The notes beneath the pieces are model-generated. The model was given only the letters and a program-made list of their open reading frames with translations. It searched no databases and was not told the DNA's origin. Below, piece after piece: positions 8,513 to 24,147 of a stretch of 24,147 nucleotides of DNA (within the stretch, counting starts at the first letter, position 1; the number at the start of each line of letters is the position of its first letter). Made by a program: the position numbers and the translations under genes. This stretch comes from Chrysochromulina tobinii (taxonomy: Eukaryota > Haptophyta > Prymnesiales > Chrysochromulinaceae), in NCBI GenBank assembly GCA_001275005.1, contig JWZX01002026.1, positions 1-24,147 of the forward strand, given 5' to 3'.

Positions 8513-10750
8513 TCACGGCGCGTACACGCCCACGAGCTCGGCCTGGAAATCGTCGAGCATGCGGACGTTGTGCACCGTCTCGTACATCTCGGTGCCATCA
8601 GTGCCTCCGAGCTTGAGGATCGACTCGGGCCCCGCCGGATGCTCATCAAGGAAGGCAGTGAAGTCGTACACCTTTCCGTGCAGCGCCACCCAGCAGCTCT
8701 GCCAGCTGTTGTGCGCTGCCAGCTCCTCGGCGCTCACGGTACGAAGCGCGGGGGCGGCGGCGCTGGCGTCCGCGCCCTCGGCGGCCACACCCCCAGCAGC
8801 CGGCAGCGGCGCGGCGGCGGCGGCGGCAGCAGGCAGGCCGGCAGCGAATGTGGGCGGTGCCTCGAGAGAGGCGATGGGTAGGCGCTCCCCCACGATGGAC
8901 CCAAAGACAGTGCACTCCAGCAGAGAATTGCCGCCGCGCCGATTGTTGCCATGCACGCCTCCGGTCACCTCTCCAGCGGCCGAGAGCCCCTCTATGACAG
9001 ACCCATCTTCCCTTAGCACCCGCCCCCCCTCGTCCATTCGGATCCCCCCCATCGTGTAGTGGAGTACCGGTACAATCCGGCCGGCGTACAGCGTCGCCTC
9101 CGGCTCGAAGTCGCCATGACGAAAATCCTTTTTGCCAAAGGTGTCGTGGCCCGCCTCGGCTGCGGCCGCGTACGACTCGAGCGTCGCCCGCAGCCGCGCC
9201 GCCAGCGCCGCCACGCCCGCGCCGCCCGCACCGTCGGTGCAGTTGGCATTCGCCTGCGCGGCGCCGGCGACGCCATCCGGCGAGAGCATCCATTGGGCGA
9301 GCCCGTCCACGCTCGCGACTTTGACGAGCAGTCCTTTCTTGACGTAGAGCTCGACGTGTCGGCCTGCCTCGGTGGCCATGGGCTGGTTGAGGACGAGTAC
9401 AAACTCGGAGGCACCGGTAGCGATCTGGCCGTCGACGACCTTATCTCGCGGCGCGAGCTCGTTGACGAAGCGCTCGCCCGCTGGGGTGAGGAGGATGCCC
9501 CCCACGCCGCGCATCATCTCTCCACAGAGCACCTTTGTCGAGGCAGTGGGGTGCGCAGGGTCGACGAACCCCGTCGGATGGATCTGGACGCGATCCATAT
9601 CGACAGAGCCGGCCCCGATGGCCATCGCCATCTTCATCCCATCGCCCGTCGCCCACTCGCCGTTGGTCGTTGGGTACACGAGGAGGTCCGGCCGATGGCG
9701 AGCGAGCAGCGACGTGTTCGTGCGGTCGTTGGCAAAGCCACCCGTTGCAAGGACCGTCTGTGCGGCGCGAAGCTCGACCACGGCGCCCGTGGCCACCTCC
9801 ACATAACGTACGCCCACCACGCGCGCCGCCGGCACGGCACCCGCGGCCGGCGCGCTGCCGTCACCTTCGGCCGAGGCGCTCAGCTGCCCATCGGCGCCCT
9901 CGAGAAGGAAGCCGGTCATGCGGCAGCCCGTGCGCAAAGAGAGCTGCCCCGTCTTGACGTACGCTTTGAGCTCCTTTTGGAGGGCGAAGGTGAGCTCGGC
10001 TCCGACCATCCCGTTTGCGGGCCGGTGCGTGCGCGCGTGCGCGTGCCCGCCGAGCTGGGACACCATCGAGAGATCAATCGAGGTGCGCTTGAGCAGCCAG
10101 CCGATGGCTGCGGAGGAGTGCTGCACGAGCACGGAGATGAGCCCAGATCGAGCGAGATGGCTCGCCGACTTGGCCGTGTCTGCCGCGAAGGCGTCGACGG
10201 TGTCGTTGGTGTTCTCCTTGGAGCGACTGTGCGGCGGGCAGCATGCATTGATCCCCGAGGACGCCTTGGCACTATTCCCGCCCAGCTGCCTCTCCTTATC
10301 GAGCACCACCACCTTGGCACCACGATCGAGCAGCCGCAGGGCGGCGGTCATGCCCGCCACCCCTGTACCGACGACCACGGCGTCCGGGATCTCCCCCGGC
10401 TGGACACCCGGCCGCATCGCCATGGGACCGCCCGCCGCGGCGGCTGCGGCGGCGGGAGCGGCGGCGGCGCGCGGCGAGAGGTAATCGGCAAGGAGGGTCG
10501 AGCGCACATGGGTGGCAAATGAAGGGAAGGATCCCAAATGCTTGGCGGCCAGTAAGAGACGTGCGTCCGGCCGAAGCGCCAGCGAGACCGCGGCCACCTC
10601 CTCCGCGCGGGTCAGCTCTCCCGCAGCAGTGGCGCGTGCGAGCGCCGCGAGCGCCGTGTCAAGCAGGCTCACATAGCCCGGGCCGCCGTAGGCCACTTCC
10701 AAAGCTGATCGATCAGAGGCGGCGGCGATGGCGATGGACGCGGCGGCGGA

Positions 10751-10792
<42 letters not shown>

Positions 10793-10909
10793 TGGCGGCG
10801 TAACGGCAGCTGCCCCAGGGTATGTGAGGGTTCGCTGTTGCAGCGACGCGCCCGTGACGGCCGCGGCGGCGGTGGCGGCCTTGGCGGTGGCGGTGGCGGT
10901 GGCGGTGGC

Positions 10910-10941
<32 letters not shown>

Positions 10942-12518
10942 GCCCATCGGCCGCATAATACCGAGCGTATCTGAGCTCCGTGAGCTCCTTGACGTGGGTG
11001 ATGGCCGAGGAGAACTTATGGAGCGTGTTGAAGAGGGCGGCGACCTCGTCTCGTGAGACCGATGTGGGAAAGAGCTCGGGAGGGAGCAGCAGCAGCTTGA
11101 GCGCGGTGCCATAGCCGAGCATCGTCACCTTGGCGTGCAGTCGGCACTTTTGGCACGAGACGCAGTCGATGACGCGGCTCACGTTGTGGAAGACCCCCTT
11201 GAATTGCTTCTTGAGGCTCCACCAGCTCGCCTGTGGGGAAGAGGCGAGGGCGCCGTGGTGAGCCCTTGCATGCAGGGAGGGCTCCACCAGCTCGCCTGTG
11301 GGGAAACGCGCTCGGATGGCCCCACGGGATGGCCGTTCGGGGTAATGTTCGGGGTAATCGGGGGCGTCCGAGGGGGCGATCCGAGGCCGAGGTGGCACTC
11401 GAAGACGGCAATCTCGCGGCAATCTCGCGGCAATCTCGCGGCAATCTCACCTGCTCCTCGCGGAACAAGAGTCCCTCGTCGAAGGCCTCAAAGACCGCCG
11501 AGCACGACTTGAGGATCGCCGTGTCGAGGAAGCGGCGCACGAGCGCAGTCGCGTCCATCATGCCGCCCACCTCTTTCAAGCTGCCCCGCTCCGCCGCCGC
11601 CGCCGCCGCCATGGCCGAGGGCATCAAGTTGTAATCGTACGTCGACAGGAAGGGCGAGGCGCGTCGCACCGCCCGAAGCAGCACGACGAAGGCGAAGTGA
11701 AGGTTCTTGAGGCGCTCGGGGTGGCCATCGAATTGGCGCGCAAAGTACGCGAGATCGGGCTCCCAGTCCGTCCGGTTCTTGCGCTTCGAGGGCGGGTGGT
11801 AGAAGCGCGCCACGTGTGTGTTGGTCGCCGCATGCATGCCCGAGAGTAGCCGGTAGAGCACGCGCTCCTCGAGGCAGATGTTCTGGTCGGAGCCGGTGCG
11901 CACGAGGCAGTTCTCGTTGTAGATGGCCGCCCACACGTGCGAGCCGTTGTACCCCGTGTAGCTCTCCTCATTCAGCTGAAGGTTGACATAGTCGGAGGCA
12001 TTCGTCGGGATCGCCGAGCACATGTCGAGCCAGAACGACGGCAGCGTCTCGTCGTTGCAGTCCTCGGCGATGGTGCCCACATACGCGTGCTCCTCGGGCG
12101 TGATGGTCACGTCCACCGGGTCCGTGGGTACGCTCGACTGCTCGCGCGGCGGCGACATGGAGCTCGAGAACGGGCTGCCGCCGCCGCCCGTCGCCGCAGC
12201 GCCAAACGGGTCGGACGCCGAGTTGTCGGTGCCGAGCGTGCAGAGCGGCTCGGCAGTGTCCTCAGCCTTGCTCACGCACACGTGCTCCTCCTCCTCGGGC
12301 CCGCCCCAGTACTGGCACTTGCCATCCATGTTGACGTTGATCAGCCGAAAGAAGGGCGCCGTGCTGAGCTCGGCGAGCAGCGTGTGAAGCTGGTGCTCAT
12401 TGGCGGCCTCGACGGTCTCGAGGTTACACTGCGTGTCGGCTAGCGGCCCGGAGGGCAGCACGTCGAAGGGCGAGAACGGCGACGCGGCGAGCACCAGCGC
12501 TGCGAAGGCGGCGAGCAT
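8513..12518 (-). CDS. ERO1 - fumarate reductase - cytochrome b5 fusion protein
   Basis: Two exons, 12518-11451 and 11230-8513, phase 0, 1261 aa. Residues 1-13 resemble a signal peptide. ERO1 spans about 30-450: CQYW (68-71), YTGYNGSHVWAAIYNENC (187-204; FAD region), SGMHAATNTH (226-235), RLKNLHF (269-275) and the active-site motif C379-x2-C382-x2-C385. After an Ala/Thr-rich linker comes a soluble fumarate reductase (about 638-1140): FAD motif GTGVAGM (644-650), H907 in QIHPT, R943 in GERFVN, H1080 in HYTMGG and R1120 in GNNRRGG, the expected substrate-binding and proton-transfer residues. A cytochrome b5 domain (1185-1261) has heme histidines H1220 (HPAG) and H1243. The ERO1 active site, reductase and b5 lie in one uninterrupted exon, so the C-terminal fusion does not depend on splicing. 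Predicted role: pass electrons from folding proteins through ERO1 FAD to fumarate, probably in the ER lumen. No KDEL-like tail is seen. A canonical CX4C shuttle pair is not evident. Confidence 0.85.
10737..10941. repeat. GGC-repeat tracts encoding the Ala-rich linker
   Basis: Two runs of GGC/GGT triplets (about 10737-10796 and 10862-10940) separated by a less simple stretch. On the coding strand they read as poly-Ala and Ala-Thr within the linker between ERO1 and the fumarate reductase. The frame is kept across both. Lengths of such tracts are prone to variation and sequencing error. Confidence 0.85.
11231..11450 (-). other. Intron of the ERO1 fusion gene, with duplicated acceptor
   Basis: 220 nt. 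Donor GAGCAG|GTGAGATTG and acceptor TTCCCCACAG|GCGAGCTGG, phase 0. The join reads EEQ-ASWWSLKKQF and restores the ERO1 region ahead of the active-site cysteines. The donor side has four copies of an 11-bp word (GCGAGATTGCC). A 26-bp segment covering the acceptor and exon start occurs twice, at 11215-11240 and 11280-11305. Use of the upstream copy would shift the frame because the offset is 65 bp. Confidence 0.8.
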
Positions 12519-15742: not shown

Positions 15743-16837
15743 TTATCGAATAGTTTTCGCAGTCGGAGTCGCACGGCCAACAAGCAAGCCGAGCGCAAAC
15801 GCGAGTGCGCACGCTGTCCCGGCGGCTGTCGCCGCTGAGCCCGAGGGACGTCCCACGCCCGAGGACTGCGCCGTGCTGAGCACGCCAGCTACCAGTGGCA
15901 AGGACAGCACCCAGCGCCACTGCCTTGACCATCCGGGCGGCGTGCTCAGTTCGGCGCTCGATTCGAGAATGGTCAGCGCTCTTGCCACGCGTGAGCGCGC
16001 CTCGGGACCAGCCGCAAGCGCGCTCGCAAGCAGTGCCCAGCCACGCGACACGCCGACCGTCTCGGCGGCCGAGGCGCCCGGAACGGCGCCCGCGGCCGTG
16101 CGGTGCGGCGCGGTATGCGTGTAGTGGAGTCCAAGGAAGGCTCGCCCACGCGCGGAAAGCGCATCGCCAACTGCCTGGCAGTGTGCTTGACGATCATCCA
16201 CGAGCACCACCCTCGGCTGCGGCAACGGCTGCGGCCGCGCTGCAGCCGATGACGGTGCCATCGCGGCCGCCTCCTTGGCTGCGGCCTCGTACGCGAGTAG
16301 GCCCTGAGGCTTCCGAGAGCCGCTGCAGAAGACGATGCCGTTCGCGTGGGCAAGAGGCGGAGAGTGGGGAGCAGTCGACACCGGCACGTCCGGCGGAGAC
16401 TGCAGCTCGCCGAACGATCGGGTCTCGTCAAACAGGCCTCCCAGTCCACAGCGCGCGAGCTGGGCGAGCGTGTCCTTGGCCATCTCCGGGCCGCGTGCGG
16501 TGAGGCCGATCATGGTGTAGCCGGCGGCCTTGAGATCCAAGAGAACGCGTTGTGTCGTAGCGCCTTCCGGTGGCACCACTGTGCACGTGCATTGCAACGC
16601 CTGCCACAGCTGCACGGCCACCGTCCACGAAGTTTGAACCTCCACGCCTGCATCTACAAGCGCGTCCTTGAAACCGACCGCCCACGGCTCGCTTGCATCA
16701 TTCTCGGGCGAGACGAGCGTCTCATCAATATCCAGATAGAGCACGTCGCCCGGCACCAGGTGAGTCTTGAGGTCGGCGATCGTGGAGAGGGGCGTCACCA
16801 CGTCGCCCGGCACCAGGTGAGTCTTGAGGTCGGCCAT
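15743..16837 (-). CDS. HAD-superfamily phosphatase (DUF2608-like) with C-terminal membrane segments
   Basis: 364 aa from the ATG at 16837; the frame is open further upstream only from a TTG. All four HAD motifs are visible: nucleophile DIDET (D36, D38), motif II threonine in GLTARGP, motif III lysine in SRKPQGLL and motif IV acidic pair in VVLVDDRQ. The order and spacing, with LTARGP after a cap-type insert and GLHYTH near the end of the fold, resemble DUF2608 proteins. Substrate unknown. A Pro/Ala-rich insert (around AAARPQPLPQP) precedes motif IV. The C-terminus has two hydrophobic stretches (WVLSLPLVAGVL and ACALAFALGLLVG), suggesting a tail anchor. The first 19 residues are duplicated: MADLKTHLVPGDV and then IADLKTHLVPGDV, so the original start may have been the second copy. 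Confidence 0.75.
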   Translation of the reverse strand: MADLKTHLVPGDVVTPLSTIADLKTHLVPGDVLYLDIDETLVSPENDASEPWAVGFKDALVDAGVEVQTSWTVAVQLWQALQCTCTVVPPEGATTQRVLLDLKAAGYTMIGLTARGPEMAKDTLAQLARCGLGGLFDETRSFGELQSPPDVPVSTAPHSPPLAHANGIVFCSGSRKPQGLLAYEAAAKEAAAMAPSSAAARPQPLPQPRVVLVDDRQAHCQAVGDALSARGRAFLGLHYTHTAPHRTAAGAVPGASAAETVGVSRGWALLASALAAGPEARSRVARALTILESSAELSTPPGWSRQWRWVLSLPLVAGVLSTAQSSGVGRPSGSAATAAGTACALAFALGLLVGRATPTAKTIR

Positions 16838-16850
16838 TGAGAGGGGCGTC
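16744..16850 (-). repeat. 57-bp tandem duplication at the start of the HAD gene
   Basis: Copies start at 16744 and 16801. They are identical through CGTCGCCCGGCACCAGGTGA and for about another 15 bp, then differ by a small indel. The unit is 19 codons, so the frame is kept. Confidence 0.85.
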
Positions 16851-17037
16851 AAACACAGTACTGTACGTCTTTGAAGAGCTTCAAAACCAGAAATCGAGCC
16901 TACACTCTCGATTTCGTCGCCACACTGTCTTCCCGGTCGATGGACTCCAGGAGCTGTATGGCCGCCGCGCGTGTCCGGCAAGCGCTTCGGTCCCAGTATT
17001 GTTCACGCACAGAACCAGTACGACGCTTGCGAACGTC
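16838..17037. promoter_or_regulatory. Divergent promoter region with two inverted repeats
   Basis: 200 bp between the HAD ATG and the proline-rich gene ATG. TTTGAAG/CTTCAAA (16870-16885, 2-nt spacer) is followed by GAAATCGAG/CTCGATTTC (16890-16898 and 16907-16915, 8-nt spacer). Both are perfect arms. They could be binding sites or hairpins in the HAD 5' leader. Confidence 0.5.
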
Positions 17038-18760: not shown

Positions 18761-20614
18761 CTACGGATTGTGAGTCGCTGTGCTCAGCTTCTGGCCGCCG
18801 TTGCAGCGGTGGTAGGCGATGACGTAGTCAATGTGCACGTACTCGGAGTGGAAGAGAACAAACTCGCGGTAGCGCGCGATCACCTGGCCCAGCTCGGCGA
18901 TCAGCGAATGGTGGCAGATTGGTGGCGTGACGCCCGGCACCGCCGAGAGCTCACGGAAGTTGACGGGGAAGATGGGCGCGCCATTGTCCATCGAGGTGGC
19001 CTTCGGGCCCATCTGCTGCGTGCGCACGGGGTAGCCGAGGGCCGCGCGCACCACGAGAACGTAGAAGACATCGCCCGGGTGGCGCACGGTTCTGCCGTAC
19101 AGCCGCTTGTGTAGCTCACTGCTCGGGTCGTACGCGCTGTCGGCGCCGACATACTGATCCGTCTTGCCAACGTCCTCCGCGAGGTAGATGCCGTCACCGA
19201 AGGCGGTGCCCGCGTTGGTGCCCGAGTAGCGCTCGTTCAGGCCCGTGGACAGCAGCTCTAGCAGCCGATCCGGGCTGGTGCCATGCAGGAGGATGGCCTC
19301 GTTGGCGCCTGCCTTCATGGTGAAGCCTTCTGCAGCTGCACGAGCCGTCCTCACCGGCAGGCCTGGCACCTTGTCGACATCCTTGCCCTTCTTCTTGAGC
19401 AGATCCATCTCCTCCTGAACGCGCTTCACGCCGGCCGTGTACTTGTCCAGGTTGCGTGGATGGTCGACCTTCCACGCGCAGGCAAGCTTCAGCGAGTCGT
19501 ATGGGCCATACTTCTTGCACACGTCCTTGCCCTTGCCGAGCGAGTCTGGGTGCTCTGTCTGGAGCAGCGCCTCGAGGGAGCGTAGCACGCTTGCATCGCT
19601 TGCATCTGACACGAGCATAGGCCGAAGGGCGAACCCGTCCTCCTCCAGCGCGCGATGAGCCTTCTCCTCCACACGAACCTTCTGGAGCGAGCGCGTGCTG
19701 CCACCGATCGACGGGTGCTCAGAGAGGTCCGCGGCAACGGCGGAGGTGATCATGTTGTTGAGCCCGCCTACGAGAACGCCGAGCAGAGTCAGGAGGGCGA
19801 CGAGTAGCCACGTGGCCATCGCATCCGAGTACACGGCGAAGGAGCCCAGCAGTGGCAAGAGCAGCACAAAGGCGCTCCGGATCGAGTATAGCTTGAGTCC
19901 AGGCGGCGGCGGCGTCCATGCGGTGCACTTGAGCTGCGGCGCCTCAACCCAAGCAGAGCCGTTCCACGCCTTCCATGTCATAGTGCTCACGTCGGGCGAA
20001 GCTGCAGCTGGGTCTGTTAGGGCCAGAAAAAAGCCCTGCTTCTTACCAAGATCCGACTCAGACTGCCCCATCCAGCCATTTCCAGCGAACGCAATCCAGC
20101 GAGTTGCATCGCTCGTGTGCTGATACGCGGGACGGCCGTTCACAAGCTTGCCGACGACGAGACGGTACGTGCCCGGGTACTTGGCCGCTTCACCAGGCAG
20201 CGAGCCGCCCTCGAGCTTGAGTCCAGGCGGCGGCGGCGGCGGCGGCGGCGTCCATGCGGTGCACTTGAGCTGCGGCGCCTCAACCCAAGCAGAGCCGTTC
20301 CACGCCTTCCATGCCATAGTGCTCACGTCGGGCGAAGCTGCAGCTGGGTCCATTAGGTCCAGGAAGCCATTCTTCTTACCAAGATATGACTCAGATTGCC
20401 CCATCCAGCTGTCTCCAGCGAACGCAATCCAGCGAGTTGCATCGCTCGTGTGCTGATACGCGGGCCGGCCGTTCACAAGCTTGCCGACGACGAGACGGTA
20501 CGTGCCCGGGTACTTGGCCGCTTCGCCAGGCAGCGAGCCGCCCTCGAGCTTGAGTCCAGGCGGCAGCAGCTTTTTGCCCCCGCCGAGGATGGACCATAAG
20601 CTCCACGAGGGCAT
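18761..20614 (-). CDS. Membrane-anchored PARP (ADP-ribosyltransferase) with duplicated N-terminal domain
   Basis: 617 aa from the ATG at 20614. The frame is open to 20698 but starts there only with GTG. A spliced 5' exon is possible (TTATGCAG|C lies just before this ATG). Residues about 20-119 and 131-230 are two nearly identical roughly 111-residue units (YPGTYRLVVGKLVNGRPAY ... WMGQSES ... WKAWNGSAWVEAPQLKCTAW) joined by poly-Pro. I cannot name this domain. Two hydrophobic helices follow (about 243-263 and 267-290). A basic/acidic helical linker then leads to a PARP catalytic domain with H444 (LLHGTS), Y477 (GDGIYLAED) and E584 (REFVLF). If aligned correctly this is the H-Y-E triad associated with polymer-forming PARPs. 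Substrate unknown. There is no cleavable signal peptide, so topology is uncertain. With two helices, the repeats and the catalytic domain would face the same side. Confidence 0.75.
   Translation of the reverse strand: MPSWSLWSILGGGKKLLPPGLKLEGGSLPGEAAKYPGTYRLVVGKLVNGRPAYQHTSDATRWIAFAGDSWMGQSESYLGKKNGFLDLMDPAAASPDVSTMAWKAWNGSAWVEAPQLKCTAWTPPPPPPPPGLKLEGGSLPGEAAKYPGTYRLVVGKLVNGRPAYQHTSDATRWIAFAGNGWMGQSESDLGKKQGFFLALTDPAAASPDVSTMTWKAWNGSAWVEAPQLKCTAWTPPPPGLKLYSIRSAFVLLLPLLGSFAVYSDAMATWLLVALLTLLGVLVGGLNNMITSAVAADLSEHPSIGGSTRSLQKVRVEEKAHRALEEDGFALRPMLVSDASDASVLRSLEALLQTEHPDSLGKGKDVCKKYGPYDSLKLACAWKVDHPRNLDKYTAGVKRVQEEMDLLKKKGKDVDKVPGLPVRTARAAAEGFTMKAGANEAILLHGTSPDRLLELLSTGLNERYSGTNAGTAFGDGIYLAEDVGKTDQYVGADSAYDPSSELHKRLYGRTVRHPGDVFYVLVVRAALGYPVRTQQMGPKATSMDNGAPIFPVNFRELSAVPGVTPPICHHSLIAELGQVIARYREFVLFHSEYVHIDYVIAYHRCNGGQKLSTATHNP
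19888..20553 (-). repeat. 333-bp in-frame tandem duplication in the PARP gene
   Basis: The word GAGCTTGAGTCCAGGCGGC starts at 20213 and again at 20546, and the sequence between is repeated with only scattered changes and a shorter GGC run in the left copy. 333 bp is 111 codons, so the reading frame is kept. Confidence 0.85.
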
Positions 20615-20910
20615 TGCTTCGCTGCATAACCATGTGAGCCGGAGAGCTTGCGGAACCGGAAGACGAGAAGGCACCAACTCACAGTTGAAAAGGTCCACTG
20701 CCTGAAAACACGGAGAGTTGAATATGTTTCGTCATTCCCTCCGGCTCACGGACTAAAAATATGCTAAATGGCCTTCAGTCCCACGGTCGTCACTCGTCAC
20801 GGTCCCACGCGCCGCACACCTAAAACATTTACTAATTCCAGTGAGCTGCGTCCGACCGCGACGCGCCGACGGCCCCCCCGAGGGTCACAGTCACACCCTC
20901 GCTTTGAAGC
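20615..20910. other. Region between PARP and PG-rich genes
   Basis: About 300 bp: the 5' leader of the PARP gene and the 3' flank of the PG-rich gene (both on the minus strand). On the minus strand a possible short first exon runs from an ATG near 20733 to a CAACT|GTGAGT donor, and would join in frame to the acceptor TTATGCAG before the PARP ATG. AT-rich words lie near 20720-20765. Confidence 0.35.
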
Positions 20911-23546: not shown

Positions 23547-24147
23547 CTATGCGCGGGTGACTTGAGTGTGCGCGCTGAAGGCCCCCGGTTCGACGACGGT
23601 CGATGATGGGATCAAAATCAACACAAGAGAGGTGCAGTCGCGAAAGGCGCCCTCACCAATCTGCGTCACCGACGCGGGGAGCGTGATCGACGCGAGCGAT
23701 TTGCACTTGAAAAAGGCGTAATCACCAATCTGCGTCACCGACTCGGGGAGCGTGATCGACGCGAGCGAGTCGCAGCCGCGAAAGGCGTGCCCACCAATAT
23801 GCGTCACCGACTCGGGGAGCGTGATCGACGCGAGCGAGGCGCAGGCGAAAAAGGCGTACTCACCAATCTGCGTCACCGACGCGGGGAGCGTGATCGACGC
23901 GAGCGAGTCGCAGCCGGCAAAGGCGCACTCACCAATCTGCGTCACCGACTCGGGGAGCGTGATCGACGCGAGCGAGGTGCAGCCGTTAAAGGCGCTCCTA
24001 CCAATCTTTGTCACCGACGCGGGGAGGTCCGCGACCGACTTGAGCGACTTGCAGCCTCGCATCGTGAGCTCTCGCAGCGCCGTCAGCCTCGCCACAGACG
24101 CCGGCAGCGCCTCCCCCTTCCACTTCTTCCCGCTCAGATTCAGCCCG
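23547..24147 (-). CDS. BspA-type leucine-rich repeat protein (5' partial)
   Basis: The frame is open to the window edge, so the N-terminus is missing and the GTG at 24095 is not a credible start. At least 199 codons are visible. Six copies of a 23-residue unit (SLASITLPESVTQIGECAF) plus flanking partial units form a BspA-type (LRR_5) domain, preceded by a plain LRR-like stretch (LTALRELTMRGCKSLK). The last unit decays (LILIPSSTVVEPGAFSAH) and caps the array before the TAG stop. Such proteins are common in large protist families, and their repeats act as binding surfaces. Unit sequences are nearly identical at DNA level (69-bp period), suggesting recent expansion or conversion. Confidence 0.85.
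   Translation of the reverse strand, partial: GLNLSGKKWKGEALPASVARLTALRELTMRGCKSLKSVADLPASVTKIGRSAFNGCTSLASITLPESVTQIGECAFAGCDSLASITLPASVTQIGEYAFFACASLASITLPESVTHIGGHAFRGCDSLASITLPESVTQIGDYAFFKCKSLASITLPASVTQIGEGAFRDCTSLVLILIPSSTVVEPGAFSAHTQVTRA

Follow-up and report, generated by a model that had tools for sequence, protein, structure and literature searches.

ERO1, soluble fumarate reductase and cytochrome b5 in one predicted protein of Chrysochromulina tobinii: a candidate enzyme for fumarate-dependent disulfide formation

How disulfide bonds are formed in the endoplasmic reticulum (ER) without oxygen is an open question, and the answer put forward for yeast, a partnership of Ero1 with Osm1, rests on a weak interaction and on distant modelled flavins (PMC6242907). 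The window analysed here, a stretch of 24,147 nucleotides of Chrysochromulina tobinii contig JWZX01002026.1, bears on this question because it encodes a predicted protein in which ERO1, a soluble fumarate reductase (SFR) and a cytochrome b5 lie in one chain. We consider it probable that this protein is a single-chain disulfide-generating enzyme of the ER lumen with fumarate as the terminal acceptor, and it is plausible that it uses fumarate without oxygen.

The gene occupies positions 12518-8513 on the minus strand and consists of two exons and one 220-nt phase-0 intron, encoding 1,261 amino acids without an internal stop (Table 1). An earlier note on this DNA had described such a frame with a single phase-0 intron, and its coordinates proved exact. 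The Met at 12518 is the earliest downstream of the preceding in-frame stop, and the stop-to-stop frame of exon 2 amounts to 977 aa. Retention of the intron would shift the frame (220 = 73x3+1), and the splice junction is consistent with homologues that are uninterrupted there (P0001 ...LFREEQASWWSLKKQF and P0004 ...LFREKQAEWWSLKKQF). In Pfam, the ERO1 domain (PF04137) is split by the intron (exon 1, 6.3e-48, 164.1 bits; exon 2, 2.8e-23, 83.1 bits; cut-off 27), and the matches to FAD_binding_2 (PF00890, 1e-63) and Cyt-b5 (PF00173, 3.1e-17, 62.8 bits, cut-off 23.7) are likewise not due to chance, since all of them exceed the curated cut-offs. From the N- to the C-terminus the protein comprises a signal-like start, ERO1, an Ala-rich linker, a four-helix module, SFR and cytochrome b5.

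Two protein searches revealed that the fusion is widespread. The first used the ERO1 stretch of the spliced protein as the query against targets of at least 694 aa only; ERO1 and FAD_binding_2 are present in all of the best 120 of its 283 matches and cytochrome b5 in 94 of these, the 26 without it looking like cut sequences. The second used a profile of 13 divergent members, whose ranking favours the full architecture, and all three domains were present in each of the best 120 of 306 matches. Both searches combined gave at least 176 distinct fusions. Named sources among those listed include Emiliania, which is the first named relative of the window fusion among the matches listed, the cryptophyte Guillardia, many diatoms (e.g. 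Leptocylindrus), the thraustochytrid Hondaea, a chlorarachniophyte labelled Norri... (taxid 91329) and the greens Prasinococcus and Mesostigma. At least 18 three-domain fusions are transcript-derived, being either MMETSP sequences or EukProt entries named in transcript style (P0007, P0014, P0030, P0037, P0041, P0050, P0051, P0061, P0066, P0112, P0113, P0242, P0252, P0254, P0259, P0271, P0275 and P0282). The database labels, namely succinate dehydrogenase flavoprotein, cytochrome b5 domain protein, flavocytochrome c or hypothetical, mostly conceal the ERO1 half; one row, P0010, is labelled ERO1-like protein alpha.

These results bear on several claims of the earlier note. It had held that two separate genes in homologues, or transcripts bounded within the linker, would speak against a real fusion; the homologues are fused, with 18 transcript-derived sequences among those listed. 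The combination of PF04137, PF00890 and PF00173 in one protein, for which it had proposed a domain search, is present in listed homologues of several algal groups. The note knew of no described protein with this architecture, and we found no published account of an ERO1-SFR-b5 fusion in the open-licence literature of PubMed Central (PMC), which holds no bioRxiv preprints and few subscription journals. The supposition that this alga had joined the two steps has to be given up, as the fusion is shared across several major groups of eukaryotes, with ERO1 domains that form one clade. The note was right about one fused protein, although it overlooked altered shuttle cysteines, the four-helix module and two further ERO1 genes.

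Are the active sites intact? Conservation was assessed in an alignment of 159 rows, comprising the window protein and 158 fusions of at least 990 aa, with 18 shorter fusions excluded. The window matches 197 of the 203 columns in which conservation reaches 95% or more. The CxxCxxC motif of ERO1 and the SFR catalytic residues are nearly invariant (Table 1), each of the axial b5 ligands H1220 and H1243 is His in all 151 rows with a residue, and T188, W196 and H229 of the flavin adenine dinucleotide (FAD) pocket, at positions presumably equivalent to those of human ERO1A, occur in 159/159 rows. The claim that the ERO1, SFR and b5 sites are intact stands, except that the SFR residues number six rather than four; in sequence alignments all six match residues that form the fumarate site in both Osm1 and flavocytochrome c3. 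The mutant structure 6ku6 (Osm1 R326A) departs from Osm1 at the residue aligned to R951. The residues K76, S78 and K255 belong to a second flavin pocket of Osm1 (PMC6242907). Equivalents of the first two, K678 and S680, are present in the window, with K in 123/159 and S in 159/159 rows, but the third is replaced by E881.

The closest solved relatives of the ERO1 half are human and yeast Ero1, and Osm1 is that of the SFR half by both sequence and structure, in agreement with the link to yeast Ero1-Osm1 drawn in the earlier note; flavocytochrome c3 is also a close structural relative of the SFR half. Fold and catalytic His/Arg set would make the domain a soluble fumarate reductase of the Osm1/Frd1, flavocytochrome c type. 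An identity as a Complex II / SDHA flavoprotein was considered and rejected, Osm1 scoring 251 bits versus 78.6 for the top succinate dehydrogenase chain. As for the b5 end, two HPxG b5-like motifs are found within the last 260 residues of P0056, P0067, P0078, P0090, P0105, P0117 and P0252, and a second complete b5-like domain is visible in the alignment of P0056.

A hydrophobicity scan alone, applied to the 123 rows (fusions and window) with a Met start and intact N-terminus, detected a signal-like segment (10-residue Kyte-Doolittle window of at least 2.0) in 103/123 rows versus 245/2460 internal control segments. Moreover, a sequon at N191 is conserved in 155/159 aligned rows. From the signal-like start and this sequon we infer a location in the ER.

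The ERO1 half differs from the rest of its family in the cysteines that shuttle electrons. The C-x4-C pair is present in the shuttle region of 105/111 standalone ERO1s and in 0/97 fusions whose ERO1 part exceeds 380 aa; elsewhere upstream of the active site it occurs in 2/97 fusions. Because of this absence, the fusion is, as judged from sequence, an ERO1-domain variant and not a canonical shuttle-type ERO1. Instead, a C81/C93 pair is found in 98/103 fusion rows with 10 to 43 residues between the cysteines, on loops that are often acidic. In 44/103 rows five cysteines instead of three lie between C68 and C93, and the shuttle pair is ambiguous there. The six standalone ERO1s without C-x4-C comprise four with at most five residues in the region, P0129 with a short stretch lacking the motif, and P0233 with another cysteine spacing. 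P0233 (489 aa), the sole standalone ERO1 with a filled shuttle region yet different spacing, lies outside the main standalone group in the ERO1 tree, on a branch of weak support close to the fusions, and could be an intermediate.

A second distinctive element lies between ERO1 and SFR. Structure prediction for window residues 530-612 gave four helices at a predicted local distance difference test (pLDDT) score of 91.2 and a predicted template modelling (pTM) score of 0.80. A hidden Markov model (HMM) of residues 543-606 detected this module in 175/176 listed fusions versus 0/120 standalone ERO1s, and in 74/75 fusions outside its training set. The sole miss, P0112, lacks the module and was hence excluded from HMM building. 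No Pfam relatives of the module were found below E 0.1 with 12 members searched, and no fold relatives in the PDB at E<=0.001.

The fused ERO1 domains also form one clade. In an unrooted tree of 70 ERO1 domains (22 fusions and 48 standalone), picked from 208 by redundancy and coverage and built with the shuttle loop omitted, the 22 fusions fall together on one side of a branch (support 100/99) that is present in 200/200 bootstrap trees examined. Trees of the ERO1 and SFR halves, made from 58 of the 159 rows, have 19/55 splits in common, against a mean of 0.25 and a maximum of 2 after shuffling. Both the clade and the common splits fit a single fusion event inherited as a unit. The named hosts except Hondaea fall, we assume, in plastid-bearing groups; the fusion may go back to the last common ancestor or may have spread at a later time, with plastids for instance.

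How could such a protein work? In yeast, fumarate can be reduced without O2 by electrons that Osm1 takes from the FAD of Ero1 (Kim et al. 2018, PMC6242907). The two proteins bind weakly (Kd ~200 uM), and a docking model places their flavins more than 20 A apart, too far for direct transfer, for which the authors suggested a conformational change or indirect transfer via a missed component (PMC6242907). Covalent fusion would remove the affinity problem, and the b5 heme and the helical module would be candidates for the missing component. We infer that electrons flow from thiol to fumarate. A dithiol of protein disulfide isomerase (PDI) or of a client would reduce the C81/C93 pair on its long loop, which would pass the electrons to the active-site disulfide within C379xxC382xxC385 and on to the ERO1 FAD. 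From there they might reach the SFR FAD either via the b5 heme (H1220/H1243) as a one-electron bridge or directly, and the SFR FAD would finally reduce fumarate to succinate at the H907/R951/H1080/R1120 site.

A bolder version, which we regard as possible but rather doubtful, would make the protein a mini respiratory chain of the ER lumen on one polypeptide, running from thiol via ERO1 FAD, b5 heme and SFR FAD to fumarate, with a new helical docking module and a shuttle loop made for the purpose. On this account the protein may have originated early in eukaryote evolution, as a paralogue alongside the O2-using ERO1, and would have been retained by haptophytes, cryptophytes, stramenopiles, rhizarians and greens.

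Comparison with known systems sets the fusion apart. Folds and catalytic residues are like those of yeast Ero1 and Osm1, as would be the re-oxidation of the ERO1 flavin by SFR, which was demonstrated in yeast. However, yeast employs two weakly binding proteins and an Osm1 without a heme domain, whereas the fusion is one chain with b5, wider-spaced shuttle cysteines and an extra helical module. Yeast Ero1 carries a C-x4-C shuttle. With respect to the ERO1 family (human ERO1A, 3ahq/3ahr; yeast Ero1, 1rp4), the fusions are a separate clade devoid of that motif. Bacterial flavocytochrome c3 (Shewanella, 1qjd) similarly combines the flavin domain and fumarate site with a heme domain in the chain, but its heme domain is N-terminal and of the c type and it has no ERO1, whereas the fusion bears a C-terminal b5 as well as ERO1. 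In the mitochondrial Erv1-Osm1-fumarate route of yeast, a thiol oxidase is likewise coupled to fumarate through Osm1, although the oxidase is a different one and separate proteins act in the intermembrane space, as far as the citing source relates (Neal et al. 2017, as cited in PMC9516139).

Several observations weigh against fumarate-dependent disulfide formation by the fusion. Its activity, location and cofactors are deduced from sequence, and the predicted structure of a full homologue reached a pTM of only 0.54, so that the model does not settle the domain arrangement and hence the b5 bridge. The window has S186 where 142/159 rows have R, a position presumably corresponding to the FAD contact R187 of human ERO1; R1121, adjoining the catalytic R1120, at a position that is L in each of the 151 further rows with a residue; and E881 as the equivalent of Osm1 K255, K being found in 20/159 rows. 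A KDEL-like C-terminus occurs in 0/176 listed fusions (one ends in NFEL), nor does the window protein have one (VYAP). The two half-trees contain four conflicting pairs of well-supported splits, and nearly all named hosts are members of algal groups that produce oxygen. The case for proximity as a necessity is also weakened: thiol oxidation still proceeded with an Osm1-heme chimera that had lost binding to Ero1, so that physical interaction was not strictly needed, as the authors report (PMC6242907).

Alternatively, b5 could supply the SFR flavin with electrons of a different donor for the production of succinate, while ERO1 works separately with O2 and the fusion merely co-localises or co-regulates the two. 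The b5 domain does sit on the C-terminal side of SFR and not on ERO1, and the heme domain attached to flavocytochrome c3, a close structural relative, feeds its flavin. We nevertheless hold this to be unlikely, as a distinct ERO1 clade, an altered shuttle and a module dedicated to the side of SFR exceed what co-localisation needs, and we know of no luminal electron donor to b5. It is quite unlikely that the protein is a thiol-driven ene-reductase whose acceptor is another alpha,beta-unsaturated acid or free flavin, given that the best match in sequence and structure is Osm1 and that the six residues aligned with the Osm1/flavocytochrome c3 fumarate site are kept. An ERO1 that chiefly uses O2 with a different thiol partner, SFR keeping its FAD oxidised or loaded and rarely turning over, would suit the mostly aerobic algal groups of the named hosts and the rebuilt shuttle loop, but is very unlikely in view of the near-complete conservation of the SFR catalytic residues, which points to selection for turnover. 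An artefact of gene modelling or assembly that joins two separate genes is scarcely credible: despite the Ala-rich linker and an intron predicted from DNA alone, the same fusion recurs in these proteins from many sources, transcripts among them, and the splice junction fits.

If the fusion indeed transfers electrons from thiols to fumarate, a division of labour with other ERO1s may exist in the same cell. The genome searched (53.15 Mb in 2,253 contigs) contains two further ERO1 genes, at C2052 and C794, both with the ordinary C-x4-C shuttle, and no second soluble fumarate reductase was found in it. The C2052 ERO1 is a long branch in the ERO1 tree. For the C794 ERO1, the first named relative is Calcidiscus, which we take to be a haptophyte like Emiliania, closely followed by a row labelled Cerati... 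(taxid 2916, now Tripos, a dinoflagellate). These two ERO1s would serve O2-dependent folding, and the fusion would act in folding under low oxygen or with sparing of peroxide.

Table 1. Features of the fusion gene and its predicted protein, in window coordinates
Feature	Position	Strand	Remarks
Exon 1	11451..12518	-	356 codons, residues 1-356; signal-like N-terminus and most of ERO1 (PF04137 6.3e-48)
Phase-0 intron, 220 nt, GTGAG...CCCCACAG	11231..11450	-	junction fits uninterrupted homologues P0001, P0004
Exon 2	8513..11230	-	906 codons with stop, residues 357-1261: ERO1 end, linker, SFR, b5
Hydrophobic signal-like segment, residues 1-27	12438..12518	-	best 10-residue Kyte-Doolittle window 2.75
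C81 to C93, wider-spaced candidate substitute for C-x4-C shuttle	12240..12278	-	loop comparison, fusions versus standalone ERO1s
CVSCQKC, residues 379-385, ERO1 active site	11144..11164	-	all three Cys in 159/159 rows
Ala/Thr-rich low-complexity linker, about residues 452-528	10715..10945	-	poorly conserved in alignment
Four-helix module, residues 543-606, between ERO1 and SFR	10481..10672	-	HMM and predicted structure
Soluble fumarate reductase domain, residues 639-1126	8921..10384	-	
SFR catalytic H907, E927, R930, R951	9446..9580	-	159/159, 158/158, 158/158, 154/155 rows with residue
SFR catalytic H1080, R1120	8939..9061	-	153/154, 152/153 rows with residue
Cytochrome b5 domain, residues 1190-1247, ligands H1220 and H1243	8558..8731	-	Pfam and conserved His

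The intron of the fusion gene contains a motif with many copies in the genome. The motif GTGCTCACCACGGCGC (at most one mismatch) has 1152+1196 copies in 53 Mb versus 4+4 for a reversed control, sometimes in tandem at a spacing of about 50-80 nt, and resembles a family of introner-type repeats. In the fusion the motif is located close to the 3' end of the intron (11231-11450), as it is in the second intron of the C794 ERO1, and both introns hold a copy of the following exon start, in the window as a 26-nt repeat at 11215-11240 / 11280-11305. Four of the six window matches with at most two mismatches were not tied to introns.

Elsewhere in the window, 428-2323 on the plus strand holds two frames, one with ShK domains and the other with a 2OG-Fe(II) oxygenase domain that is presumably prolyl 4-hydroxylase-like; they are possibly exons of one gene. 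Between them, tandem 54-87 nt repeats with GGTGAGTGTCCTCTCTGATGACCTCTGATTGC form splice-donor-like units (1301-1716). On the minus strand, 15743-17002 is a DUF2608 frame with a 57-nt unit in two tandem copies at 16742-16851, 18761-20731 encodes a PARP catalytic domain preceded by a 333-nt tandem duplication (2 copies, 94% matches) in the N-terminal half of the frame, and 23547-24146 encodes BspA-type leucine-rich repeats extending past the window end.

By the reasoning usual for gene fusions, the covalent joining of Ero1/Osm1-type partners in distant lineages supports a functional link between them, and the added heme domain and helical module could bridge the flavin gap. The family also provides one protein on which thiol-to-fumarate transfer can be measured. 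The fusion suggests that abundant marine algae may secrete proteins independently of oxygen, and if this holds true, oxygen-free and peroxide-free disulfide formation would be a widespread eukaryotic capacity, beyond yeast.

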